Origin: Lysobacter alkalisoli
Lineage (GTDB): Bacteria > Pseudomonadota > Gammaproteobacteria > Xanthomonadales > Xanthomonadaceae
Assembly: GCF_006547045.1 (NCBI RefSeq)
Contig: NZ_CP041242.1
Location: forward strand, 1,808,001-1,872,000
Length of the DNA stretch: 64,000 nucleotides
Reading direction: 5' to 3'
The position numbers were made by a program, and so were the translations under genes. The notes beneath the pieces are model-generated. The model ran no database searches. It saw only the letters and a list, made by a program, of their open reading frames with translations, and was not told the DNA's origin. Numbering within the stretch: the stretch's first letter is position 1; every line of letters starts with the position of its first letter. Of this stretch, positions 13,348-62,867 are shown in pieces.

Positions 13348-15348
13348 ATGTGCGGGATAGCCGGCCTGATCGCAGCGCCCGGTGAACGCCCACCGATGGA
13401 ACCGGAATTGGCCGCGATGATCGCGACCTTGCGGCACCGGGGACCAGACGGCAACCGCATGCGGGTGGACGGGCAGGTGGGGTTGGCGCACGCCCGGCTG
13501 TCCATCATCGACCCCGACGGCGGCTGGCAGCCGATCCACAACCCCGATCGCAGCGTTTGGGTAGTCCTCAACGGCGAGATCTTCAATCACGTCGAGCTGC
13601 GGACGTCGCTGCAGCGCCTGGGCCACCGCTTCTACACCCGTTCGGACACCGAGGTGATCGTGCACCTGTACGATCGCTACGGAGACGATTTCGTCGATCA
13701 CCTCAACGGCCAGTTCGCCATCGCGCTGCACGACATGCGTCGCAGGCGAGTGGTGCTGGCGCGCGACCGGGTCGGCATCCGCCCGCTGTATTACCACCAT
13801 TCCGCCAGGGGTCTGGCGTTCGCATCCGAGGCCAAGGCGCTGTTCGCATGCCCCCATGTGCAGCGCGGCCTGGACCTGCAGGCGCTGGGAGAGATCTTCA
13901 GTTTCTGGGGCACGCTCGGCGCACGTACGGTATTTGGCGGCATCCAACAACTGCCTCCGGGACACCGGCTCAGCATCGACCTGCGTGATTCCGCGCTGAC
14001 GCCCGTCATGCAGCGCTACTGGCAATGGCAGCCGCTGCCGGACCTGTCGCTGCGCAGCGAAGACGAGTGCGCCGAGGAGCTGCACGCGCTGCTGGTGGAC
14101 GCCGTGCGCCTGCAACTCCGCGCCGACGTGCCGGTGGGTGCCTACCTGAGCGGCGGTCTGGATTCGGCATGCATCGCGGCCCTGGTCAAAGGCCATACCG
14201 ACACGCCGTTGCGTACTTTCTCGTTGGGGTTCTCAAATGGGGAGGCTGCCGACGCCGAGTTTGACGAACGCCCGCACCAGCAGCAGATGGTCCGGGCGCT
14301 TGGCACCGAGCACAGCGAAGTGCAGGTGTCGCATGACGACATCGCGACGGCGTTCGCGCGCACGGTCTGGCACGCCGAATCGCCGCTGGTGCGTACCGCG
14401 CCGGTTCCATTGATGCTGCTGGCCGGGCATGTGCACCAGTCCGGTTACAGAGTGGCCCTGACCGGCGAAGGGGCCGACGAGGTGTTCGCCGGCTACGACC
14501 TGTTCAAGGAAGCCAGGTTGCGCCGCTTCATGTCCGTCCGTCCCGACAGCCGCTGGCGCGGCCGCTTGCTGGAGCGGCTGTATCCCTGGCTCGAGCATTC
14601 GCCGGTGCGATCTCCCGACTTTGCCCGGCGGTTCTTCCAGGAAGGGCACGACCAGCGCCACCAGCCCTGGTTCGCGCACCTGACCCGCGTGCGCAGCACC
14701 CAGCGCGTGTTGCGCTTCCTGCATCCGGACCTGCGCGAGCAATTGCGGGCCTGGAATCCTCTGCATACCCTGGCGTCGGGGCTCCCGGACGACATCGAGT
14801 CATGGAAGCCCCTGGCACGCGACCAGTACGTGGAAGCGGCGACGCTGCTGCCCGGCTACCTGTTGTCCTCACAGGGCGACCGCATGAGCATGGCGCATTC
14901 GGTGGAGGGGCGGTACCCGTTCCTGGATCACCGCGTCATCGAGTTCGCCAACCGGCTGCCGGCCCGCTACAAGCTGCATGGCCTGCGCGAAAAGCACCTG
15001 TTGCGGCACGCAATGCGGCACGAGCTGCCCCGCGCCGTGCTCGAGCGTCACAAGCAGCCCTATCGGGCCCCGGACAGCGCGTGCTTCTTCTCCGGCGGCC
15101 AGCCATTGCGATGGGTGGCCGAGGCGTTGCGGCCCGAACGGCTGGCGGCCAGCGGGCTGTTCGACGTGGCGGCGGTCGGACATCTGCTGGAGAAGTGTCG
15201 CCGCGGCCGCGCGATCGGCTTTCCTGACAACATGGCCTTCGTCGGCATCCTGTCCACGCTGCTGCTGCACGAACAATTCATGGGGGCCGGGTTTGCGGAG
15301 GCCGGACTCGTGCAGGCCGGGTTCGTGCAGGCGGGACGCGCGCCATGA
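13348..15348 (+). CDS. Class B amidotransferase, asparagine synthase (glutamine-hydrolysing) type
   Basis: The 666-residue product begins MCGIAGL, so C2 is the N-terminal glutaminase nucleophile; this decides the start over ATG 13342. The Ntn glutaminase half carries RHRGPDG and LNGEIFNH. The synthetase half has the PP-loop YLSGGLDSACIAAL near residue 264 and a later GEGADEVFAGYD. The enzyme would adenylate a carboxylate and amidate it with ammonia from glutamine. It resembles amidotransferases found in polysaccharide and exosortase-associated clusters more than plain AsnB. The next gene overlaps by ATGA. Confidence 0.9.
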   Translation: MCGIAGLIAAPGERPPMEPELAAMIATLRHRGPDGNRMRVDGQVGLAHARLSIIDPDGGWQPIHNPDRSVWVVLNGEIFNHVELRTSLQRLGHRFYTRSDTEVIVHLYDRYGDDFVDHLNGQFAIALHDMRRRRVVLARDRVGIRPLYYHHSARGLAFASEAKALFACPHVQRGLDLQALGEIFSFWGTLGARTVFGGIQQLPPGHRLSIDLRDSALTPVMQRYWQWQPLPDLSLRSEDECAEELHALLVDAVRLQLRADVPVGAYLSGGLDSACIAALVKGHTDTPLRTFSLGFSNGEAADAEFDERPHQQQMVRALGTEHSEVQVSHDDIATAFARTVWHAESPLVRTAPVPLMLLAGHVHQSGYRVALTGEGADEVFAGYDLFKEARLRRFMSVRPDSRWRGRLLERLYPWLEHSPVRSPDFARRFFQEGHDQRHQPWFAHLTRVRSTQRVLRFLHPDLREQLRAWNPLHTLASGLPDDIESWKPLARDQYVEAATLLPGYLLSSQGDRMSMAHSVEGRYPFLDHRVIEFANRLPARYKLHGLREKHLLRHAMRHELPRAVLERHKQPYRAPDSACFFSGGQPLRWVAEALRPERLAASGLFDVAAVGHLLEKCRRGRAIGFPDNMAFVGILSTLLLHEQFMGAGFAEAGLVQAGFVQAGRAP

Positions 15349-16898
15349 ACGGGCTGCACGAACGCTTCGACGCCACTGCGTCCCGCCACCCCGGCAGGAC
15401 GGCCCTGGTCAGCAACGGACGGCGTCTGGACTTCGCCACCCTGTCCGCGCACAGCCGGCGGCTGGCGGCCAGATTGCGCGAAGCCGGGGTCGCGCCGGGG
15501 CAGCGCGTCGCGCTGTATCTCGACAACGGGGTGGAGATGGTGACGGCGTTGTGGGCGTTGCTGCGGCTGGGAGCCGTCTGTATGCCGGTCAACCCGCAGA
15601 CAAGGGCGGACAAGCTGGGCTTTGTTCTGGCGCGCACCGGCGCCGCGATGCTGCTGACCCAAGCCTCGCTGTCGGCGGCGTGGCGCCCCGCGTGCGAGGC
15701 CTCAGGCGTGCGGCACGTGTGGGTGCACGGGGATCGCGGGTACCCGGGCCCTGTCGGCGAACATGCCGTCGAGCATGCCGTCGAGACCGCGTGGCCGGAT
15801 GTCGGCAGCGAGCCGACGTCGTCGCTGCCCGACCATCCCGTCGGCCCCGACGACCTGGCCTTCATCAGCCACACCTCCGGCACCACCGGCCAGCCGAAGG
15901 GCGTGATGCTGAGCCATCGCAACCTGTCCGTCGCGACCGATTGCATCGCCGGTTACCTGGGCATCGGCCACGACGACGTAATCTTCAGTGCGCTGCCGCT
16001 GAGCTTCAACTACGGGCTGACCCAGCTCCTGCTGGCGTTGACCACCGGAGCGACCCTGGTGCTGGAGCGGTCGTTCGCGTTCCCGGCCCAGGCATTGGCG
16101 ACGATGGCACGCGAACGGGCCACGGTATTCCCCGCGGTGCCGACCATGTTCGCGATACTGATGGAGATGCGCGATCTTGCGTATCCGGACCTGTCGGCGC
16201 TGCGGCTGATGACCTGTGCATCGTCGCCGATGCCGCTGCCACTGCTGCGGCAGGTCCGGCAGTGCCTGCCGCAGGCGCGGCTGTACCTGATGTACGGCCA
16301 GACCGAATGCACGCGGATCAGCTACCTGCCTCCGGAGGAGCTGGACCGCCGCCCGGACAGCGTGGGCCGTGGCATTCCCGGCCAGGCCTGTTGGCTGGTT
16401 GATGCCGAGGGCAGGCGGCTGCCGTGGGGCGCGACCGGCGAGCTGGTGGTGCAGGGCGCGCACCTGATGCAGGGCTACTGGGACGACCCGCAACGCACCG
16501 CCGGGAAGCTTTTCGTCGATCCCGAAAGCGGAAGACCTGCCATGTGCACCGGCGACCTGTTCCGCAGCGACGCCGACGGCTGGCTGTACTTCCTCTCGCG
16601 CCAGGACGACATCATCAAGACCCGCGGAGAGAAAGTCAGCCCGCTGGAGGTCGAGCGGGCCATCGTGTGCATACCCGGCGTGCGCGAATGCCTGGTGGAC
16701 GGCGTTGCGGACCCGCTGCTGGGGCAGGCGATCAAGGCCTGGGTGGTGGCCGAGCCCGGCGCGGGCCTGAAGGAGCGCGACATCATCCGTCACTGCCTGG
16801 CCCGCCTGGAGAGCTACATGGCACCCAAGCACGTGGCCTTTGTGGACGGCTTGCCACGTACTGCTAACGGGAAGCCCACTCGACAGGACCTCAGATGA
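15345..16898 (+). CDS. AMP-forming acyl-CoA/acyl-ACP ligase
   Basis: The 517-residue ANL-superfamily enzyme has the P-loop SHTSGTTGQPKGVML near 173, YGQTECTR, GDLFRSDADG, and the C-terminal ANGKPTRQDL lysine motif. It would activate a carboxylic acid with ATP and load it onto CoA or, more likely here, onto the carrier protein encoded next (ATGA overlap). It resembles acyl ligases found in exosortase A-type clusters, but no exosortase gene is seen in the window. Confidence 0.9.
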   Translation: MNGLHERFDATASRHPGRTALVSNGRRLDFATLSAHSRRLAARLREAGVAPGQRVALYLDNGVEMVTALWALLRLGAVCMPVNPQTRADKLGFVLARTGAAMLLTQASLSAAWRPACEASGVRHVWVHGDRGYPGPVGEHAVEHAVETAWPDVGSEPTSSLPDHPVGPDDLAFISHTSGTTGQPKGVMLSHRNLSVATDCIAGYLGIGHDDVIFSALPLSFNYGLTQLLLALTTGATLVLERSFAFPAQALATMARERATVFPAVPTMFAILMEMRDLAYPDLSALRLMTCASSPMPLPLLRQVRQCLPQARLYLMYGQTECTRISYLPPEELDRRPDSVGRGIPGQACWLVDAEGRRLPWGATGELVVQGAHLMQGYWDDPQRTAGKLFVDPESGRPAMCTGDLFRSDADGWLYFLSRQDDIIKTRGEKVSPLEVERAIVCIPGVRECLVDGVADPLLGQAIKAWVVAEPGAGLKERDIIRHCLARLESYMAPKHVAFVDGLPRTANGKPTRQDLR

Positions 16899-39742: not shown

Positions 39743-40597
39743 ATGGACATGATCAAGGATCTGGTACTTCCCCTCACCGACACGCCCGGTGACGCCAACG
39801 CGTTGGATGCGGCGCTGATCCTGGCCGACTACACACAGGCGCATCTCACCGTGGTGGGGACAATCTATCTTCCGTCTCCGGCATACGGAGCCTGGGGAAT
39901 GACCCTGGACGCTTCGTCGATGCAGCGGGTCCACACCGAGGCACGTGCCATGGCGGAAGCCCAGGCTGCGCAGTTGCGCGAGCGTCTCAACCGGGAAGCG
40001 GTCTCATCGGAGTTGCGCCTGGTGGAGACACTGGTACCCAATTCGCAGCGTAAAGCGTTACTGCACGCACGCTATGCCGATCTCGTCGTGATGACGTCTG
40101 CCGAGGATGGAACTGGCGGGAGCCCCTCCGTCCACGCCTTCTTCAGCACGATGCTGCTTGAATCAGGACGGCCGGTGCTGGTTGTTCCGCCCAGCTGTCG
40201 CCTGAAGATGCCACCACGGCATATCGTGGTGGCATGGCGACCCACACGGGAAGCGACGAATGCCCTGCATGCGGCGATGCCGCTGTTGCGCACCGCTCAA
40301 ACGGTGGATGTGCTGGAGATAGAGAGCGGGCCGGAGGAACGTAGCGAGGATGGAGAGCAGCCAGGTGCGGATATTGCAACGCACCTGGCCCGGCATGACC
40401 TCAAGGTGCGTGTTGTGGTCAAACAGCAGCACGGTGATCCAGTGGCTACGGCACTGCTGCGACACTGCAATGAATCCGATGCCGAGCTGTTGGTTGCAGG
40501 CGGATATGGTGGTTCGCGTTTCCGTGAATGGATGCTCGGTGGAACGACCCGTCAGCTGCTGCAGTTCGCGCATCTTCCGGTGTTCTTCTCGCATTGA
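39743..40597 (+). CDS. Universal stress protein, two UspA domains
   Basis: The 284-residue protein has two Usp folds: residues about 5-150 (DLVLPLTDTPGDANALDAAL ... GRPVLVVPPS) and 160-284 (HIVVAWRPTREATNAL ... LLVAGGYGGSRFREWMLGGTTRQLLQ). The second half keeps the ATP-binding-like GGYG...R...GG pattern. Tandem Usp proteins under FNR-type control are common in facultative denitrifiers. The upstream palindrome supports anaerobic induction. Confidence 0.9.
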   Translation: MDMIKDLVLPLTDTPGDANALDAALILADYTQAHLTVVGTIYLPSPAYGAWGMTLDASSMQRVHTEARAMAEAQAAQLRERLNREAVSSELRLVETLVPNSQRKALLHARYADLVVMTSAEDGTGGSPSVHAFFSTMLLESGRPVLVVPPSCRLKMPPRHIVVAWRPTREATNALHAAMPLLRTAQTVDVLEIESGPEERSEDGEQPGADIATHLARHDLKVRVVVKQQHGDPVATALLRHCNESDAELLVAGGYGGSRFREWMLGGTTRQLLQFAHLPVFFSH

Positions 40598-41769: not shown

Positions 41770-41783
41770 TTGACGCAGGTCAA
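41770..41783. promoter_or_regulatory. FNR/ANR-like site before the P1B ATPase
   Basis: TTGAC-GCAG-GTCAA, a perfect palindrome nearly identical to the one at 39676-39689. It is about 180 bp upstream of the chosen ATPase start. Confidence 0.65.
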
Positions 41784-41955
41784 GTCGCTACCAGGGTTTG
41801 CGTCCAACATGATCGCCGACCCCAGCGTAAGACGACCGGTCTTTTCAGGCTCCCAAGCCAGACAGGTCTTCGACGCGACCCATCAAGGATCGGCGCTTGA
41901 CGACACAGGCTCCCCAGAGCGGCCGCCAGGCACCAAGCAAGCTGAGGCAACTGCA

Positions 41956-44262
41956 ATGGACAAGCCGGAAGACACCCTGCCATCGCACCCCATCGATCCA
42001 TCCGGGGAGCGTCGATCCCTGCAATTGCTGGTGCCTGGAATGGGCAGCGACCATTGTGCCGGGCTGATTGCCACCTCCGTTGAGCGGCTACCGGGCATCT
42101 TCAGCCTCAACACCAATGTCGCCAACCACCACGTCACGGTTGAGTTCGATTCGGGCCGGCTTGGTGATGGCGACATCCGGAATGCCATCGAGCGGGCAGG
42201 CTACGAAGTGGCCAGAGTCGGCGAATACCCGGCGCACGCCGGCACGGACGGGGATGAAGCCGTAGAAGAACGCTATCTCGACCAGGCCTGGCAGCGCCTG
42301 TGGTTTGCCGCCATACCCACCACCCTGATCATGGCGCTGATGATGGTGCACATGTTCTGGGTGCCGGTGCCGGGGTACCTGGCCCTGGTGGCCCTGCTCG
42401 CATTTCCCGTGGTGTTCATGCGGGGTGGTTGGGCCACCCACCGCTCGTCCTGGCGATCCCTTGCCAACCGTACCGCCAACATGGATGTGCTCATCTCCAT
42501 GGGCAGCCTGCCTCCCTACCTGATCGGGTTGGCGGGCTTCGTCTACCCCATGACCTCGTTCATCGAAATGGCCGCCACCATCATGAGCTTCCACATGCTG
42601 GGGCGTTATCTGGAGACCCGGGCCAAGGGCCGCGCATCGCAGGCGATCAAGAAGCTGCTCAAACTGGGCGCAAAGACCGCATCCGTGTTGCGGGACGGGC
42701 GGGAAACCGAAGTGCCGGTCGCACAACTTCAAGTGGACGACATCATGGTGGTGCGCCCTGGCGCCAAGGTGCCCACCGATGGCGAAATCGTCGCGGGCAG
42801 CAGTCACCTGGATGAATCCATCGCCACGGGCGAGTCCGTGCCGGTGGAGAAAGGTCCGGGCGATGCGGTGATCGGCGCCACCATCAACAAGGAAGGCATG
42901 CTGCAAGTGCGCGCCACCCGGGTGGGCGCCGACACTTTCCTGTCCCAGGTTGTCCGGCTGGTGGAACAGGCCCAAGGCTCAAAGGTGCCGATCCAGGAAT
43001 TCGCGGACAAGGTGACTGCCAGGTTCGTTCCGGCGGTGATCCTGATCAGTTTGGCAAGCCTGGTTACATGGCTGCTGTTTGCCGATTCGCTGAGGCCGGT
43101 TCTCTACTGGGGCGCCGGCTTTCTGCCATGGGTGGACCCGGAGTTGTCGCCGTTGATGCTGGGCCTCCTGTCCGCCGTAGCGGTGCTGGTGATCGCCTGT
43201 CCGTGCGCCCTTGGGCTCGCCACGCCGACCGCCATCATGGTGGGATCGGGGCTGGGCGCCGAGACCGGGGTGCTGATCCGCTCGGGTGAAGCGATTCAGT
43301 CCCTGAAAGACATAAAGGTCGTGGTGTTGGACAAGACCGGCACCATCACCAGGGGAGAGCCCTCCCTTACCGACGTCATCGCCGTCGGCGGGTTCGCCGA
43401 GGACGACGTCCTGATGTACGCGGCTTCGGTGGAAGTCGGCTCGGAACACCCGCTGGGACAGGCCATCGTCAATGGCGCCCGGCAGAGAGAGCTGGACATA
43501 CCCACCGTCAGCCATTTCAAGGCGGTTACCGCCCGCGGCGTGGAAGGCCGCGTGAATAGCAGACTTGTCCACGTCGGCAGTCGCCGCCTCCTCGATGAAG
43601 AGGGAATCGAACTGGAGGAGCTTGAAGACGCTCTGGTCAGACTGGAGAACGAAGGCAAGACCGCGATGCTCGTCGCTGCCGACGGTCGTGCCGCCGGTAT
43701 CGTCGCTGTCGCCGACACCATCAAGGACGAGTCGAAAGCCGCCATCGCCGCCCTTCATGAGTTGGATATTCACACGATCATGATCACCGGCGACAACGAG
43801 CGCACGGCACGCCATGTCGCCAATCAGGTAGGTATCGATGAGGTGCTGGCGGGGGTCCTGCCGGAAGGCAAGGTCGAAGCCATCAGGAAGCTGCAGGAAA
43901 TGCATGGCCAGCAGGTGGCCATGGTAGGCGACGGCATCAACGACGCGCCGGCCCTGAAACAGGCCAACGTCGGCATCGCCATCGGCGCCGGAGCCGATGT
44001 CGCCATCGAGGCGGCTGACGTCACCCTGGTGGGGGGTGAGTTGACCAAGGTGGTCGAAGCTATCCGCCTGTCCCGTGGCACCTTCCGCAAGATCGTGGAA
44101 AACCTGTTCTGGGCCTGGTTCTACAACGTGGCCGCCATTCCCATCGCTGCCGCTGGCCTGCTGCATCCCATGATCGGTGTGATCGCCATGACTGCCAGTT
44201 CCCTGTCCGTGATCGGCAACTCCCTCCGTCTCAAACGGCTGAAGCTGAACGTGGACAAATGA
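41956..44262 (+). CDS. copA: Copper-type P1B ATPase (CopA family)
   Basis: The 768-residue protein has one N-terminal heavy-metal domain, eight membrane helices, CPC (IACPCALGLATP, about 415), DKTGTIT (about 458), GSEHPLGQAI, GDGIND, and the helix 8 motif MTASSLSVIGNSLRLKRL typical of Cu(I) pumps. The metal domain reads GMGSDHC where GMxCxxC is expected, so the first Cys is replaced by Ser. The start MDKPEDTLPSH has GAGG 9 bases upstream. FNR-like sites suggest a role in cuproenzyme assembly or anaerobic copper stress rather than simple resistance. Confidence 0.9.
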   Translation: MDKPEDTLPSHPIDPSGERRSLQLLVPGMGSDHCAGLIATSVERLPGIFSLNTNVANHHVTVEFDSGRLGDGDIRNAIERAGYEVARVGEYPAHAGTDGDEAVEERYLDQAWQRLWFAAIPTTLIMALMMVHMFWVPVPGYLALVALLAFPVVFMRGGWATHRSSWRSLANRTANMDVLISMGSLPPYLIGLAGFVYPMTSFIEMAATIMSFHMLGRYLETRAKGRASQAIKKLLKLGAKTASVLRDGRETEVPVAQLQVDDIMVVRPGAKVPTDGEIVAGSSHLDESIATGESVPVEKGPGDAVIGATINKEGMLQVRATRVGADTFLSQVVRLVEQAQGSKVPIQEFADKVTARFVPAVILISLASLVTWLLFADSLRPVLYWGAGFLPWVDPELSPLMLGLLSAVAVLVIACPCALGLATPTAIMVGSGLGAETGVLIRSGEAIQSLKDIKVVVLDKTGTITRGEPSLTDVIAVGGFAEDDVLMYAASVEVGSEHPLGQAIVNGARQRELDIPTVSHFKAVTARGVEGRVNSRLVHVGSRRLLDEEGIELEELEDALVRLENEGKTAMLVAADGRAAGIVAVADTIKDESKAAIAALHELDIHTIMITGDNERTARHVANQVGIDEVLAGVLPEGKVEAIRKLQEMHGQQVAMVGDGINDAPALKQANVGIAIGAGADVAIEAADVTLVGGELTKVVEAIRLSRGTFRKIVENLFWAWFYNVAAIPIAAAGLLHPMIGVIAMTASSLSVIGNSLRLKRLKLNVDK

Positions 44263-44649: not shown

Positions 44650-45054
44650 TTAGAGGCTCTGCAGGTAGACGATCAGGGCGTCGATATCCTCCGGCGGCAA
44701 TGAGCGGTAGACGCGTTTTGCGTTCAGGGCAGACGGCGACAGTCCGTCGCGGACGGCATCGGTGCCGAGAATCCAGTCTCGCATCTCTGCGGCGTCCATG
44801 TGCCTGGCGATGTCATCCAGGGGACTGCGGCGACCGCCCACGCCACCGATCGAATGGCAGCGTACGCAATCTTCCTCGCGGAACAGTTCGCGCCCGCGGG
44901 CGATCTGTGCCTGTTTACCGGCGCCCGCCGCGGTCGGGGCGCCCCCGGCATCGTCGCCGACGGATGGATTCATCACGGCCGCGAAGGTGGCCGACAGGAC
45001 TACAACCATGATGCCCGAGAGCACGGCGAGGGTTCTTGCCAGACGTTTACGCAT
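44650..45054 (-). CDS. Exported monoheme cytochrome c
   Basis: The 134-residue protein has an N-terminal signal/anchor (LAVLSGIMVVVLSATFAAVM) and a single heme site CVRCH (REDCVRCHSIGGVGG), with a distal helix (RVYRSLPPEDIDALIVYLQSL) of class I cytochromes. It is 12 bp after the ferric-reductase-like gene in the same operon, so it is a likely electron partner of that flavoprotein or of the decaheme cytochrome. Confidence 0.88.
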   Translation of the reverse strand: MRKRLARTLAVLSGIMVVVLSATFAAVMNPSVGDDAGGAPTAAGAGKQAQIARGRELFREEDCVRCHSIGGVGGRRSPLDDIARHMDAAEMRDWILGTDAVRDGLSPSALNAKRVYRSLPPEDIDALIVYLQSL

Positions 45055-45066
45055 GATGATTCTCCT

Positions 45067-46443
45067 TCAAGCCAGGTCGAATATTTCCGAGTGCATCCGC
45101 GTAGCCGGAACATCCAGCGAACGCAGGCTGCGTTCGGCAAGCTGGATCATCGGTTTCGGCCCACAGATGAAGTAATGGAACCCGTGCCGTCCGGCCGGAA
45201 GATGGCGTGCCAGGACCTCGCGGGTGATGAAGCCGCGCTCTCCGGTCCATCCATCCGGCGGTTCGCCCAGCACGTGCACGACATGCAGGTCCAGGTGTCC
45301 GGCCATAACATCGAGTTCTTCCCGGAACACGATGCGCTCCCAGCGACGGTTGCCGTAGAACAGCCATAGTGGGCGGGTATCTCCGCGGTCGGCGAGTGCC
45401 CGCAACATGCTGACGATCGGCGCGATGCCCACACCGCCGGCGATGAACACGTGCCCGGTCGCGTCCGGATGTCTGTCGACTCCGAAGGCGCCATAGGGAC
45501 CGTCCACCCACGCGGCCATACCGGGCTGGAGGTCGCCGATGGTCGCGGTGAAGTCGCCCAGCGCCTTGATGGTGAACTCGAGGCGCCCCGGCCGGGTAGG
45601 GCTGGAGGAGAACGAAAAAGGATGCTCGCGCATTGCCAACGGTGAGGCACGCAGGCTCAGCCAGGAAAATTGCCCCGGCTCGTAATGGAAAGCCGCTGCA
45701 TGCTGCGGTTCGACAGCCACGGTCCAACTGCGTCCCCGCTCCTGACGGATCTCGGTGACCCGCCAGGGGTGCCGCTGCAGCCACCACGGACGGATCACGC
45801 GGACATGGACGACCAGGGCGATGGCGGACAGCGCCAGCGTAATCCATAGCCCGCGTTTGAACGGCGTCAGCAGGTAGCTGGCCGAACCCAGGATGTGCAG
45901 CAGCGCGAATGCGATGCCCAGCACGGCCAGGACCGTGTGCATGCGGCGCCAGACGTCGTAGTCGATGCGGAGCTGCTTGCGCAGCAGTGAGGTAACCATG
46001 ATCGATACGAACGCAAGCATCGCGAGCCAGCCCAGGGTCATGTATGCCGGCGCCTCGCGCGGGTCGATGCTGCCGACAGCCTCCGGACGGATCGCAACCA
46101 GGAGGGCCGCATGCAACAGGAGCAGCATGAAGGCGATCACCGCCAGATAACGGTGGAAGTAGTAGATGATGTCGATGCCGAAGGGTGCGGTGGCGCGCTT
46201 GAAGCGGGCGGTCAGCGCGAACTGCACCGCCATCATGGCCAGGCCTGCGTAGCCAAGGGCGAGGGCGAAATCCCACCCGAACCCGCCGCCGCCGGGACGG
46301 TCCCCGAGCAGCAGGACGAGCAGGGGCAGGGCGATCAGGGCCAGGTACAGGGCGATCCAGGTGCCTGGCTGTATCCACCTGCCCAGCGGGCTGGCAGCGA
46401 TCGGTTTGATGGCGAGTCTCCGGCGACGATGTGTTCTGATCAT
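45067..46443 (-). CDS. Ferric-reductase-like membrane flavoprotein
   Basis: The 458-residue protein has six membrane helices of the ferric-reductase/NADPH-oxidase heme-b domain (His in IIYYFHRYLAVIAFMLLLLHAALL, VWRRMHTVLAVLGIAFALLHILG), then an FAD domain (REHPFSFSSSP) and an NAD(P)-binding domain (HVFIAGGVGIAPIVSMLRAL, YFICGPKPM). It would move electrons from NAD(P)H or a ferredoxin across the inner membrane to a periplasmic acceptor. It is divergent from the decaheme gene, with an FNR-like site between. Confidence 0.9.
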   Translation of the reverse strand: MIRTHRRRRLAIKPIAASPLGRWIQPGTWIALYLALIALPLLVLLLGDRPGGGGFGWDFALALGYAGLAMMAVQFALTARFKRATAPFGIDIIYYFHRYLAVIAFMLLLLHAALLVAIRPEAVGSIDPREAPAYMTLGWLAMLAFVSIMVTSLLRKQLRIDYDVWRRMHTVLAVLGIAFALLHILGSASYLLTPFKRGLWITLALSAIALVVHVRVIRPWWLQRHPWRVTEIRQERGRSWTVAVEPQHAAAFHYEPGQFSWLSLRASPLAMREHPFSFSSSPTRPGRLEFTIKALGDFTATIGDLQPGMAAWVDGPYGAFGVDRHPDATGHVFIAGGVGIAPIVSMLRALADRGDTRPLWLFYGNRRWERIVFREELDVMAGHLDLHVVHVLGEPPDGWTGERGFITREVLARHLPAGRHGFHYFICGPKPMIQLAERSLRSLDVPATRMHSEIFDLA

Positions 46444-46465
46444 CGGCTGGGCTGCGGAGACATTA

Positions 46466-46479
46466 TTGATCGAAGTCAA
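46466..46479. promoter_or_regulatory. FNR/ANR-like site between ferric-reductase-like and decaheme genes
   Basis: TTGAT-CGAA-GTCAA lies 30 bp from the minus-strand start and about 90 bp from the decaheme start, a position where one dimer could activate at least one of the two divergent promoters. Confidence 0.7.
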
Positions 46480-46561
46480 TGACTGTGCACGGACGGACCG
46501 ATAACGTCGGTGCCAGGAATCCCTGAGATGCGGAGTTCCTTTGGGGGGAGCAGAGGCCATC

Positions 46562-47524
46562 ATGCGGAAGACGAGACTGGATCTCATTACCCTCCTTGTC
46601 CTGGGCATCGCAGGAGTCCTTGGGGTCTCGACGCTGATGTCGCCCTCGGCGGGAGCCGCGTCCGAGGCGCAACCTGCCGCACTGCCGCCAGCTGCCGAGA
46701 CCTGCCTGTCCTGCCACGACGAGCCGGCGGTCACCCCCATCCTCGGCACGCCGCACGCGGTGGCGGCGGACCCCCACAGTGGATTTGCCGAACACGGCTG
46801 CGCCACCTGCCATGGGCCGAGCCTGGCGCATATGCAGCGACCCGAGCGCGGCAGCCGGCGGGCGCCCCCGGACAAGGTGTTCGGTGCGGCCTCGACAACG
46901 CCCGCCGAAGCGCAGAACGCGACCTGCCTGGATTGCCATCGCAGCGGTGCCGGCATGCATTGGCAGGGCAGTACGCACGACCATGAGGGGCTGGCCTGCG
47001 CGACCTGTCACCGCGCACACACCGGCACGGATCCGATGCAGGACGCAACCGCACAGTCGCAGACCTGCTATGGCTGCCACCGTTCGGTGCGGACCGAATC
47101 GCTGCGACCGTCCCATCACCCGCTGCACGATGAGCGCATGGCCTGCAGCGACTGCCATGCGGTGCATGGCTCCAGCGGTCCGTCCCTGCTCACCCGGGGC
47201 ACGGTCAACGAAACCTGCTACCAGTGCCACGCCGATCTGCGCGGGCCGTTCCTCTGGGAGCATCCACCGGTGCGCGAGGACTGCCTGCTCTGCCATCGTC
47301 CGCACGGCTCGGTGCAGGCCTCGCTGCTGCGCCAGCGCGGCCCGTGGCTGTGCCAGCAATGCCACATGGCGCAGTTCCACCCCAGCGCCGCGCTCAGCGG
47401 CACCGGCCTGCCCGGTGAGGCGCTGCCATCGGGGTCGAGTTCGATGCTCGGCCGCAACTGCATGAATTGCCACAGCCAGGTGCATGGGTCGAACCATCCA
47501 TCAGGCGCCGGCTTCACGCGCTGA
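46562..47524 (+). CDS. Decaheme cytochrome c of the MtrA/DmsE/PioA family
   Basis: The 320-residue protein has a signal peptide and exactly ten CxxCH sites (CLSCH, CATCH, CLDCH, CATCH, CYGCH, CSDCH, CYQCH, CLLCH, CQQCH, CMNCH). MtrA-type proteins form a heme wire plugged into an outer-membrane barrel; the barrel gene follows 24 bp downstream. The start MRKTRLDLITLLV has a strong G-rich site (GGGGGGAG). Candidate donors are the NapC-type protein, the monoheme cytochrome or the flavoprotein. The direction (Fe(II) uptake, metal or DMSO reduction) cannot be told from sequence. Confidence 0.94.
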   Translation: MRKTRLDLITLLVLGIAGVLGVSTLMSPSAGAASEAQPAALPPAAETCLSCHDEPAVTPILGTPHAVAADPHSGFAEHGCATCHGPSLAHMQRPERGSRRAPPDKVFGAASTTPAEAQNATCLDCHRSGAGMHWQGSTHDHEGLACATCHRAHTGTDPMQDATAQSQTCYGCHRSVRTESLRPSHHPLHDERMACSDCHAVHGSSGPSLLTRGTVNETCYQCHADLRGPFLWEHPPVREDCLLCHRPHGSVQASLLRQRGPWLCQQCHMAQFHPSAALSGTGLPGEALPSGSSSMLGRNCMNCHSQVHGSNHPSGAGFTR

Positions 47525-47548
47525 CCCATCGATGGGCGGACACGGGAC

Positions 47549-49783
47549 ATGGGCAGGATTCTCCGACTGAGGCGACGACCGCAACAATGGTTGCCGCTCG
47601 TCGCGTGTCCGTTCCTGCTGGCGACAGGCGCCATGGCGCAGGAGACGCCCACGGGCGGGGAAGCGTATTGCCATGAGACGGAGCTGATGTTCGGCCATCT
47701 CGGCAGCGACGATTTCAGGTTCGGACGCTATGCAGGGGAGGGCGGCGGCATGTTCGCGGCGCTCGACATCGATGCCTGTCGCCGACTTCATCCGGGTGCA
47801 GATGGCGCCGAGTACTGGTTCCTGCGCGGCAGAGATCTGGGATTGGCGACGCATACCCTGGCCGTCGGCGGAGGCGAGCAGGGGCGTTTCAATATCGAAG
47901 CGGAAGCGCGGCGCCTGGCTTCGCCCCGGGTCAGTGGCTGGACGCCGCTGTTGGAGCAGGGCAGCGACGGTGCTCGCCTGCCTCCGGACTGGGTGGCCGG
48001 AACCAGTACCGTCGACATGCCGGGGCTGCGCCTGCCCGAGCTGGGAGAGGTGGACCTCGAATCCATCCGCCGGCAGCGCATGGTGGGCCTGGCGTTCGCG
48101 ATGCCACGCAACTGGCGCATCGAAACCCGCTATCGGCATGAATCCCGCCAGGGCAGGCGCGGCTTCGGCGGCGTCATCGGCAGTACTGGCGGCAACGCCC
48201 GCGCCATCGTCCTGCCCGAGTCCATCGACCACCTGACGCGGCAGGCCGACACCACCCTGAGCTATGCCGGCGAACGCCTGCAGTTGCGCATCGGCCATCA
48301 TCTTTCGCAGTTCGACAACGGACACTCCACACTGCGATGGCAGAACCCGTTCGCCGGCGTCGCCGGCTGGGCGCCATCGGCAAGTCACCCAAGCGGTTTC
48401 GGACAGGCGCAGCCGGCGCCGGACAACCGCTTCCAGCAGTTCAGCCTGGCAGGCGCCTACAGTCGTTCGGCCGCGTTTCAGATCAATGCCGATCTCGCGT
48501 TCGGCCGCATGACCCAGGACCAACCATTCCTGCCGTACACGATCGACCCGGTGCTGGCAGCAGAGATCACCCAACCACTGCCGCGCGCCTCGCTGGATGG
48601 CAGGATCGACACCACCGTGGCGCACCTGCGCCTGTCGGGACGGCCACATCCGCACTGGCGATGGAGCGCGACGTATCGCCTCGACGACCGCGACAACAAG
48701 ACCGCCAGCGACGAGTACGTCGTCATCGGCGGCGATTCGCAGCAGCAGAACGCCACCCCGGCCAGCGGGCAACGCCGCTACAACCTGCCTTATGGCATCC
48801 GCGAGCAAACGCTGAGTGCCGACACGGGCTACCGTCCGACACGCCGGTTCGATCTTGGTCTGGGTTTCGAACACAGGCAGACCGACCGGACCTGGTCGTC
48901 ACGCGCGGACAGCGATGAAACCCGCCTCAAGTTTGCGCTGCGCAGCCACTTCGGCGAGATGTTCGCCGGCGGTGTCCGTGTCGACGGCAGCCGACGTTCG
49001 GGTTCGACCTATGTCGGCAACCGGGCCTTTCTCGCCAGCCACTCGCAGGCCTATGTCGAAACCGTGGCTGGAGGATTCGAGAATCTTCCAGCCCTGCGCC
49101 AGTACCACCTGGCCGACCGCGACCGCCGACAAGTCCAGCTGTTCGCCACGCTCACGCCCACCGCGGCACTGAGCATTGGCCTGGAGTACGGAAGTACCCA
49201 CGACGACTACCGACGCTCCGAGCTCGGCTTGCGGCGCAGCCGGATCGACAACGTCGGTCTTGGTGTCGACTACGCATCGATGTCGGGTTGGTCCCTGCAT
49301 GGCTATGCCGAACGCGCACGGTTCTCGTTCGACCAGGCGGGACACAGCTTCCGCGGCGGCGGCGCCCGGCTCGACGAGGCCGCCGATCCCGATCGCGACT
49401 GGTTCGCACAGCACCGCGACAGGGCCGACAGCATCGGCTTCGGCATCTCTCGTGAACTGTTCGAAGGTCGCCTGAAGCTGCGGGCCGACTACAGTCACGT
49501 CCGCAGCACGGGAGCAGCCGATGTCACTGCCGGCGCGGCACTGGAAGTGGGGCCGTTGCCGGAGACCGTCGCCCGCCTGCAGCGGCTCGATCTCCTCGCC
49601 GATATCCGTCTGCGCGACCATGTGAACCTGCGCCTGCGCTACGGCATGGAATCGTTCCGCAGCACCGACTGGGCATTCGATGGTGTCGGGCCGGATACCC
49701 TGGCCGGTGTGATCCTGTTGGGCGAACAGAGTCCGGACTATCGCGCCGACGCGGTGATGATGTCGATGCACTGGCGCTTCTGA
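47549..49783 (+). CDS. MtrB/PioB-family outer-membrane beta-barrel
   Basis: The 744-residue protein has a signal peptide ending GAMA-QETP, then FGRYAGEGGGMFAALDIDA and some two dozen amphipathic strands with aromatic ends, closing with F (MMSMHWRF), as barrels do. The family sheaths MtrA-type decaheme cytochromes. The CxxC pair near the N-terminus of Shewanella MtrB is not present: only YCHE and IDAC are seen. No MtrC/OmcA-type surface cytochrome gene follows, so the layout is that of two-part PioAB/MtoAB conduits or a DmsEF system lacking dmsAB. Confidence 0.9.
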   Translation: MGRILRLRRRPQQWLPLVACPFLLATGAMAQETPTGGEAYCHETELMFGHLGSDDFRFGRYAGEGGGMFAALDIDACRRLHPGADGAEYWFLRGRDLGLATHTLAVGGGEQGRFNIEAEARRLASPRVSGWTPLLEQGSDGARLPPDWVAGTSTVDMPGLRLPELGEVDLESIRRQRMVGLAFAMPRNWRIETRYRHESRQGRRGFGGVIGSTGGNARAIVLPESIDHLTRQADTTLSYAGERLQLRIGHHLSQFDNGHSTLRWQNPFAGVAGWAPSASHPSGFGQAQPAPDNRFQQFSLAGAYSRSAAFQINADLAFGRMTQDQPFLPYTIDPVLAAEITQPLPRASLDGRIDTTVAHLRLSGRPHPHWRWSATYRLDDRDNKTASDEYVVIGGDSQQQNATPASGQRRYNLPYGIREQTLSADTGYRPTRRFDLGLGFEHRQTDRTWSSRADSDETRLKFALRSHFGEMFAGGVRVDGSRRSGSTYVGNRAFLASHSQAYVETVAGGFENLPALRQYHLADRDRRQVQLFATLTPTAALSIGLEYGSTHDDYRRSELGLRRSRIDNVGLGVDYASMSGWSLHGYAERARFSFDQAGHSFRGGGARLDEAADPDRDWFAQHRDRADSIGFGISRELFEGRLKLRADYSHVRSTGAADVTAGAALEVGPLPETVARLQRLDLLADIRLRDHVNLRLRYGMESFRSTDWAFDGVGPDTLAGVILLGEQSPDYRADAVMMSMHWRF

Positions 49784-61343: not shown

Positions 61344-62867
61344 ATGATCCCGCGCAAGGCTATCCTTCCCGCTTCCGCCGGGCATGTCCCGGCGAGTTCC
61401 TTCCCGGGTTCTCCGCAGGTCCGATTCTTGATCGAGAGCACTTCAACGCCACCGCTTTTCACCGTGTTGCCGGACGGTCTGTTCGGGCCACTGGCGTCTC
61501 CCAACCGTCATCACCACTGGCATCTGTTGTGCCGGCTGTTCGAGGAGTTCTTCGGGCCGGACGCGCCGATGCCGCCCAGCATCGGCCTGCAACGGCGTGA
61601 GATCACGTCCGCGATCGAGCGCTATCTGCTGACCGACGACCCGTGGGAAGACGAAGACGGCGTGACGCCGGATACGCCACTGGCCATGCGGGCGGCCAAC
61701 CTGTACGACCGGTTCCGCGATGCGGGCTGGCTGCGCCAGGAGCGGATCGGCGCGCGAGAGATGGTGTCGATGACACCAGTCGTATCACAGTTCATTGCGA
61801 CGCTGGTCGAGTTTACCGAGCGTGGACCGACCTTCCTGAGTGCGAAGATCCGTTCGATCGAATTGCAGTTGCTTCAGGTCGTCGAAGGCAAGGCCGGTGG
61901 CGACATGCTGGACGAGGCCGCGCTGCAGGCCCGCCAGCTGTTGTCCAACGTTGCCGCCATCAGCGTGCAGGTACGCGATCTGATGCCGGAGTTGAGCAGG
62001 GCCGAAAGTACGGCCTCCTTCGCCCGGCAGCTGTTCGAACGCTATGTCGGAAAGCTTTTCGTCGGCGACTATGCGGACCTGCACAAGGATGACCATCCCC
62101 TCGCCCGCCGCACTTCGATCCTGACGATGGCACGCGAGATCGAACACTCGTCGCTGCGCGGCAGCATGATCCAGTGGTACAGCGAACGCACCACGGGCGG
62201 CGACAGCGTGCGTGCCGAGCAACGCCTGCTGCGCAACCTACGCAGGCTGCAGGAGATCGACCGCATCGACGAGTATCTGCAGAGGCTCGACGATGACATC
62301 CGCCAGGCCAACCGCCGAGCACTGGCCTTCCTGGACTACCGTCTGCGCACTCCGGACCGGCTGGACAAGCTGCTGCGCCGGGCCTGCCGTGGCGTGCTGT
62401 CCGCGCCTGGGGAGGCGTTGCGCCTGCCGGTGGCACCGGGTCACTTGTTGGAAGAACGCCGCCTGCGGCCGCCTGTCCGGCGTCCGCAGCCGATTCCGCG
62501 CACGGCCAACAGCACCGCACCGCCAACGCCCGAACAGATCGCCCGGCTCAACCTGCTGCGACAGATGAAGCGGGTTCGGCTGGTGTTGCCCGAAGACCTG
62601 GTCCGCTATCTGGACCGGCATTGGGACAGTTCCGTCCGCCTCGACTCCCAGTCATTGCGGGTCGACAGCATCGAGGACTTCCGTGCCTACCAGACCCTGG
62701 TCACGCTGGCGCTGCGCAGCCATCGTGCCGGAGGATTGCGGCGCGACGATCCACTGCACCGGATGCTGTGCGGCTTCCGTATCGAACTGGTCGACGGTGA
62801 ACGCATCCGCAACGATCACCTGCACTCTCCCCGTTTCGTCCTGCACCGGACAAGGAAGGCCGCATGA
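61344..62867 (+). CDS. jetA: Wadjet system protein JetA (MksF/kleisin-like)
   Basis: The 507-residue protein matches JetA of Wadjet: FTVLPDGLFGPLASPNRHHHWHLLCRLFEEFFG near the start, winged-helix N-terminal part, helical centre (RDLMPELSRAESTASFARQLFERYVGKLF), and a C-terminal winged helix. In the complex the kleisin-like subunit bridges the SMC-like ATPase. The start is uncertain: a TTG at 61428 is closer to the conserved region. It overlaps jetB by ATGA. Confidence 0.82.
   Translation: MIPRKAILPASAGHVPASSFPGSPQVRFLIESTSTPPLFTVLPDGLFGPLASPNRHHHWHLLCRLFEEFFGPDAPMPPSIGLQRREITSAIERYLLTDDPWEDEDGVTPDTPLAMRAANLYDRFRDAGWLRQERIGAREMVSMTPVVSQFIATLVEFTERGPTFLSAKIRSIELQLLQVVEGKAGGDMLDEAALQARQLLSNVAAISVQVRDLMPELSRAESTASFARQLFERYVGKLFVGDYADLHKDDHPLARRTSILTMAREIEHSSLRGSMIQWYSERTTGGDSVRAEQRLLRNLRRLQEIDRIDEYLQRLDDDIRQANRRALAFLDYRLRTPDRLDKLLRRACRGVLSAPGEALRLPVAPGHLLEERRLRPPVRRPQPIPRTANSTAPPTPEQIARLNLLRQMKRVRLVLPEDLVRYLDRHWDSSVRLDSQSLRVDSIEDFRAYQTLVTLALRSHRAGGLRRDDPLHRMLCGFRIELVDGERIRNDHLHSPRFVLHRTRKAA

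Follow-up and report, generated by a model that had tools for sequence, protein, structure and literature searches.

The 64-kb window, meaning the whole stretch of DNA analysed (G000:C1:1808001-1872000), belongs to a 3.86-Mb genome in one contig and carries, at 44650-49783, four genes arranged as two divergent pairs. The minus-strand pair encodes a monoheme cytochrome c (cytc) and a ferric-reductase-like flavocytochrome (FerRed), and the plus-strand pair encodes a decaheme cytochrome of the MtrA type and an outer-membrane barrel of the MtrB type. An earlier note on this DNA had this anatomy right, down to the 24-bp spacing between MtrA and MtrB, and its caution on function was fair; its description of the genome as xanthomonad-like also fits, the one named relative found being Luteimonas salinisoli of the Lysobacteraceae. 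The features are the following:

44650..45054, minus strand: monoheme cytochrome c (cytc), 134 residues; from PF00034, alignments and a structure model
45067..46443, minus strand: FerRed, predicted NOX/FRE-type flavocytochrome b, 458 residues; from Pfam domains, invariant histidines and SpNOX as nearest relative
46466..46479, no strand assigned: FNR/ANR-type box TTGATCGAAGTCAA in the divergent promoter; from the TTGA-N6-TCAA pattern
46562..47524, plus strand: MtrA-type decaheme cytochrome c, 320 residues; from ten CxxCH motifs, TIGR03508, 6R2Q chain A and a tree
47549..49783, plus strand: MtrB/PioB-type outer-membrane barrel, 744 residues; from PF11854, TIGR03509, 6R2Q chain B and a tree

The MtrA-type protein contains ten CxxCH motifs, scores 278.7 bits against TIGR03508 (cut-off 192.2) and matches chain A of 6R2Q over residues 41-316 (E 6e-69). 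Beyond the heme motifs, 12 further histidines are invariant in an 8-row alignment, fitting bis-histidine ligation. The barrel, devoid of heme motifs, scores 418.2 bits against PF11854 (cut-off 23) and 367.7 bits against TIGR03509 (cut-off 240.05), with residues 49-743 matching chain B (E 1e-46). From this decaheme cytochrome and its adjacent barrel, the locus is predicted to encode an MtrAB-type porin-cytochrome conduit, in which the MtrB barrel would be expected to sheathe MtrA. Each protein occurs once in the genome, and the MtrB model matched none of 14 named control genomes. The only cysteines of the barrel lie at positions 20, 41 and 77, ruling out a CxxC motif, as the earlier note had also read. 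Cys41 is kept in 7/7 aligned rows reaching that position and Cys77 in 8/8; situated 36 residues apart near the barrel N-terminus, they form a possible candidate disulfide.

Membership of MtrCAB was considered for the locus and rejected. There is no MtrC gene among the four, in agreement with the earlier note, and in a PF22113 search of the genome NapC alone exceeds the cut-off; MtrA and one frame within the nap region match below it, and other proteins give no match. Beyond these NapC/MtrA-type matches, the search returned nothing of MtrC type (TIGR03507 was not searched).

The flavocytochrome and its monoheme partner

FerRed unites Ferric_reduct (55.9 bits, cut-off 28), FAD_binding_8 (35.4 bits, cut-off 22) and NAD_binding_1 (91.1 bits, cut-off 22) in one chain, following the full NOX domain order. 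The HX13H pairs H97/H111 and H169/H183 are invariant in 8 aligned rows, and at least two such motifs are carried by all 11 FerRed proteins linked to the set. Across the membrane and dehydrogenase parts together, the best solved sequence relative is SpNOX (8qt6, E 7e-19); for the dehydrogenase part alone, a cytochrome b5 reductase scores slightly above it. In the fold search, the top three matches are SpNOX, with human NOX2 entries within the first 50. By its domains and heme pairs, FerRed is classified as a NOX-type flavocytochrome b that likely delivers NAD(P)H electrons to the periplasmic face, and its flavin domain would be cytosolic by analogy with what NOX/FRE enzymes are known to do. Under argon, SpNOX passes electrons straight to cytochrome c, and acceptors besides oxygen have been proposed for bacterial NOX proteins (Hajjar et al. 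2017, PMC5676040).

The partner, cytc, has one CxxCH motif and matches Cytochrom_C (PF00034) at 32.5 bits (cut-off 21.3). Its structure model (predicted local distance difference test, pLDDT, 85.7) begins with a helix at residues 2-28, through which the protein is probably anchored in the membrane. In an alignment of 13 distinct FerRed-linked cytochromes (the window, L083, L084, L095-L099, L140, L141, L149, L150 and L221), Lys113 is invariant in 13/13, and a conserved methionine after the heme motif is absent. Judged by its spacing to the last helix, Lys113 presumably occupies the usual place of the axial methionine of many small cytochromes; several diheme cytochromes in a profile alignment have a methionine one residue before this position. 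The cytc fold search returned nothing below E 0.001, and His/Lys ligation of the heme, with Lys113 in the heme pocket, is advanced as a hypothesis from the alignment. The same lysine occurs in L140 and L141, where FerRed and cytc are found without MtrAB, and is therefore a trait of the FerRed-cytochrome pair.

Recurrence and phylogeny of the four-gene set

MtrAB neighbourhoods were compared across the window's family, order and class, with 11-24 kb per divergent locus. The recurrence check proposed with the earlier note found the divergent cytc-FerRed/MtrA-MtrB layout in nine other genomes (L095-L099, L083, L084, L149 and L150; L095 is treated as one locus with L038, from Luteimonas salinisoli SJ-92) and, in a tenth, L221, the four genes in collinear order as MtrA-MtrB-FerRed-cytc. 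Within the stretches compared, these four genes are the only ones common to all ten divergent loci, window included. The nap genes and the neighbouring P-type ATPases, considered as further parts of the unit, were rejected on the same comparison.

Seven of the 397 genomes of the order have a FerRed gene scoring at least 570 bits, in every case inside the four-gene set. Sixteen weaker FerRed genes score 248-481 bits, and in the 13 whose locus was obtained neither MtrA nor cytc lies within the flank of about 1.5 kb or less. Six of the seven strong-FerRed genomes are among the 62 of the order with MtrB over the cut-off, the barrel of L221 falling under it; the co-occurrence gives a Fisher p of 7e-5 with the L221 miss counted, a value that serves as a guide only, since the genomes are related. 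Wide neighbourhoods were available for 39 of these 62 genomes, and the FerRed search covered all 397.

Genomes with the module come from four family groups (f1, f2, f3 and f5) of the order. In the window's family, 13 genomes have MtrB over the cut-off, and the module is present in 6 of the 12 that were read. The six other listed genomes of the window's genus gave no MtrB match, which makes the distribution patchy. A single-protein search of genome contigs with MtrB returned one locus, that of Luteimonas salinisoli. Among plasmids, one record contains MtrA (Photobacterium sp., 40.5%) and 1121 records contain FerRed homologs, all below 60% identity, with 42.2% the best among the matches listed; in the one plasmid region read (Paracoccus marcusii, with a FerRed homolog), MtrAB is not annotated.

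The association of conduit and flavoprotein, which the earlier note had called unusual, is thus real and conserved. No description of it, and no NOX-type partner of MtrAB, was found in the open-access literature among the matches listed, by titles and abstract openings and with most subscription journals outside the scope. By term search, Baker et al. 2022 (PMC8805035) mentions neither Xanthomonad-, ferric reductase nor NADH, and neither Luteimonas nor Lysobacter. Relative to the known MtrAB conduits, the conserved four-gene set is a new variant.

Trees were built for the three larger proteins, with the context labels MtrC, CymA and DMS assigned from heme counts and BLAST hits. The MtrA tree comprises 93 rows including the reference, drawn from open reading frames with at least nine CxxCH motifs and fewer than 560 residues, with L215 and L207 excluded and the bootstrap unsettled. 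In it, MtrA of the ten divergent loci forms one clade (99/99), nested in a 17-row set (99/94) together with L221, L093, L094, L104, L106, L208 and L209. MtrC-linked rows, the 6R2Q reference and L202, linked to a dimethyl sulfoxide (DMSO) reductase, fall outside the 17-row set, and rows near a 4-heme NapC/CymA-like or 10-heme MtrC-like gene fall outside the ten-locus clade. The MtrB tree (78 rows, quick method) excludes frames below 550 residues or at 60 bits or less and also omits L085, L086, L197, L219, L231, L232, L233 and L234; many of its rows, those of the ten loci included, are flagged for unusual composition. MtrB of the same ten loci again forms a single clade (100); CymA-linked rows are close by, and MtrB of L093 groups with them. 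In the FerRed tree, all 11 linked proteins form one clade (95/97), in which L221 is the sister of the ten from divergent loci, and L140-L143 come next (97/96). These topologies fit a joining of FerRed to MtrAB that would have happened once or twice.

In seven loci (L104, L105, L106, L208, L209, L217 and L146), a distant member of the ferric-reductase superfamily, a flavoprotein with 27-30% identity to FerRed, lies near MtrAB. Those included in the FerRed tree fall into a group of their own, and their association with MtrAB is therefore a second, separate one. Two further loci have neighbours of note: the FerRed-cytc pair of L140 (6087-10434), which lacks MtrAB, lies near a gene for a mercury(II) reductase (above the cut-off of the MerA model), and L142 contains, at 13411-15996 and roughly 7 kb from its FerRed homolog, an 861-residue open reading frame with 35 CxxCH motifs.

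Promoter and genomic surroundings

The exact TTGA-N6-TCAA pattern occurs in the divergent promoter of 6 of the 10 divergent loci (the window, L083, L084, L096, L149 and L150), although L083/L149 and L084/L150 are close pairs and hence not independent for this count. In the window, the box and a minus-strand sigma-70-like match overlap, and the alignment of promoter DNA as a whole is uninformative. The window contains five such sites (39676, 41770, 46466, 53793 and 60108), against 0.29 expected. The genome encodes five Crp-family regulators over the cut-off, two of them with an N-terminal CxxC-x5-C and an ETVSR helix, which we take to be the FNR-type signature. From box and regulators, the four-gene set would be under FNR-type control at low oxygen. 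The nap genes lie about 7 kb from the set, NapA scoring 1573.7 bits (cut-off 930.55), and the region, together with nap, may be a low-oxygen island.

Other genes of the window were also noted. Of the five sites, one lies at a universal stress protein gene (39743-40597) and another at the gene of a copper-type ATPase (41770-44262). The segment 52482-57296 resembles a peptide export cluster: its products are a C39-peptidase ABC exporter, an HlyD-type protein and a third protein that combines AhpC-TSA and 2OG-Fe(II) oxygenase domains. JetA of the Wadjet defence system lies at 61344-62867 (PF18982, 170.3 bits), and the window contains no tRNA.

Proposed electron path, alternatives and known systems

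The set is, with fair probability, a self-contained trans-envelope module exporting NAD(P)H electrons independently of quinones at low oxygen. The gene set and its conservation across the order, the protein families, the conserved ligands, the clade and the promoter box are observed; the carrier order, direction, acceptor and regulation that follow are inferred. Cytoplasmic NAD(P)H would reduce the FAD of FerRed, whose two b hemes would take the electrons across the inner membrane to the monoheme cytochrome c on the periplasmic side. The ten-heme MtrA within the MtrB barrel would then carry them to the cell surface, reducing an extracellular acceptor such as soluble Fe(III), humic quinones, flavins or another shuttle. 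Such a pathway would bypass the quinone pool and dissipate energy rather than store it, acting as a redox-balancing or detoxifying outlet at low oxygen through FNR-type control. A more specific version, offered tentatively, has the NOX-type enzyme powering the MtrAB wire through a low-potential cytochrome with a His/Lys-ligated heme, without quinones and switched by FNR as oxygen falls.

Electron flow from NAD(P)H to the outside is downhill and runs along the membrane potential. Outward flow is favoured because the partner gene encodes a flavocytochrome of the NAD(P)H-dehydrogenase type. The nitrate-linked Fe(II) oxidation that the earlier note had raised as a testable idea loses support accordingly, the flavocytochrome suggesting outward flow and nap not being common to the ten divergent loci in the stretches compared. 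A wire without MtrC would more readily reduce soluble Fe(III), electrodes or shuttles than minerals, as described for Shewanella MtrAB (PMC10734462).

Several points weigh against the export of NAD(P)H electrons by this set. The FerRed model has middling confidence (pLDDT 68), the use of NAD(P)H is inferred from domain content, and wires of the MtrAB/MtoAB type are held to be reversible (PMC10734462). At the promoter, L097-L099 have one good half-site only and L095 has no FNR box. MtrA of L221 sits on a long branch outside the ten-locus clade. In the class sample of 369 genomes, six others, all outside the order, contain FerRed at 263-606 bits, with MtrAB adjacent in 0/6 (L140-L145): L140 and L141 have FerRed and the same cytochrome alone, L142 has a 4-heme open reading frame beside FerRed instead, and L143-L145 have neither. 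FerRed of G681 (606 bits) even outscores that of L221 (577 bits), yet its genome has no MtrA at E 1e-30, and in G677 MtrA is present on a different contig from FerRed. The FerRed pair can therefore serve another acceptor; FerRed and cytc are thus a separate pair, joined to MtrAB in this order.

Electron uptake of the Mto/Pio type is unlikely. Here MtrAB would take electrons from Fe(II) or minerals and cytc would pass them to the respiratory chain (an oxidase or Nap), with FerRed dissipating surplus or reducing NAD+. The set's MtrB belongs to a 24-row group (SH-like approximate likelihood-ratio test, SH-aLRT, 97) holding five CymA-linked rows, a short cytochrome c, MtoD, is present in mto operons (PMC5566968, PMC10654088), MtoA and MtrA are not clearly separated in a published tree (PMC10734462), and nap is near. 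However, the set contains no CymA-like gene, NapC is the only NapC/NirT protein of the genome (CbcL/MtoC and ImcH models were not searched), and nap is not among the genes common to the other loci over the stretches compared. A NOX-type enzyme running back to NAD+ would moreover work uphill, and no coupling device is known for it.

Production of superoxide or peroxide, with FerRed and the conduit reducing oxygen at the periplasmic face or the cell surface, is distinctly improbable. SpNOX as the nearest fold and the NOX2 matches point in this direction, and oxygen has been reported as a terminal acceptor of extracellular electron transfer (PMC9765408). The FNR-kind promoter box nevertheless speaks for low oxygen, and periplasmic oxygen reduction needs no ten-heme conduit.

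The genome encodes five molybdopterin proteins, of which NapA, NuoG and an FdhF/YdeP-type protein exceed a cut-off, the assimilatory-nitrate-reductase/Fdh-like and PhsA-like proteins staying under all cut-offs shown. That MtrAB is a DmsEF-type pair working for an extracellular molybdenum reductase whose gene lies elsewhere is highly improbable and refuted as far as tested: MtrA does pass the DmsE-family model TIGR03508, but none of the five proteins reaches the DmsA cut-off (three match at 107.7-122.2 bits vs 777.7, the other two being unlisted), and both trees separate the set from L202. One outcome named in the earlier note as fatal to its reading, placement of the pair within DmsEF together with dmsAB elsewhere in the genome, was thus not found, in trees holding L202 as the only DMS-type row.

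If NAD(P)H electrons are indeed exported, the same outer-membrane wire would have a non-respiratory use, fed by NAD(P)H, bacterial NOX-like proteins would gain a testable job, and the set would offer a compact four-gene part for bioelectrochemical engineering.

The set resembles several known systems in part. With MtrCAB of Shewanella (6R2Q, from S. baltica), it shares MtrA and MtrB, aligning over nearly full length, but it lacks an adjacent MtrC and has a NOX-type inner-membrane partner in place of CymA. The MtoAB(D) systems with CymA or MtoC (Sideroxydans, Gallionella, Dechloromonas) likewise have an mtrAB-like pair without MtrC and a small cytochrome c, and CymA-linked rows lie near the set in both the MtrA and MtrB trees; the quinone-linked CymA or MtoC is replaced here by a flavocytochrome with an NAD(P) domain. 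PioABC of Rhodopseudomonas also combines a decaheme cytochrome with a barrel (PMC10654088), whereas the four genes here include none for a high-potential iron-sulfur protein (the genome was not searched for one) and the 320-residue MtrA lacks the long N-terminal extension of PioA. PCC3 and PCC4 (He et al. 2017, PMC5566968) have inner-membrane proteins with two ferric-reductase-like HX13H motifs, but their porins and cytochromes are reported not to be MtrAB homologs, and a quinone-active cytochrome b is proposed, with a flavin/NAD domain unmentioned in the available text. The three inner-membrane families of extracellular electron transfer reviewed by Zhong and Shi 2018 (PMC6295460) consist throughout of multiheme cytochromes linked to quinones. 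FerRed has the domain order, heme histidine pairs and fold of SpNOX and the bacterial NOX/FRE family; what sets it apart is that its gene is linked to those of an outer-membrane conduit and a monoheme cytochrome.

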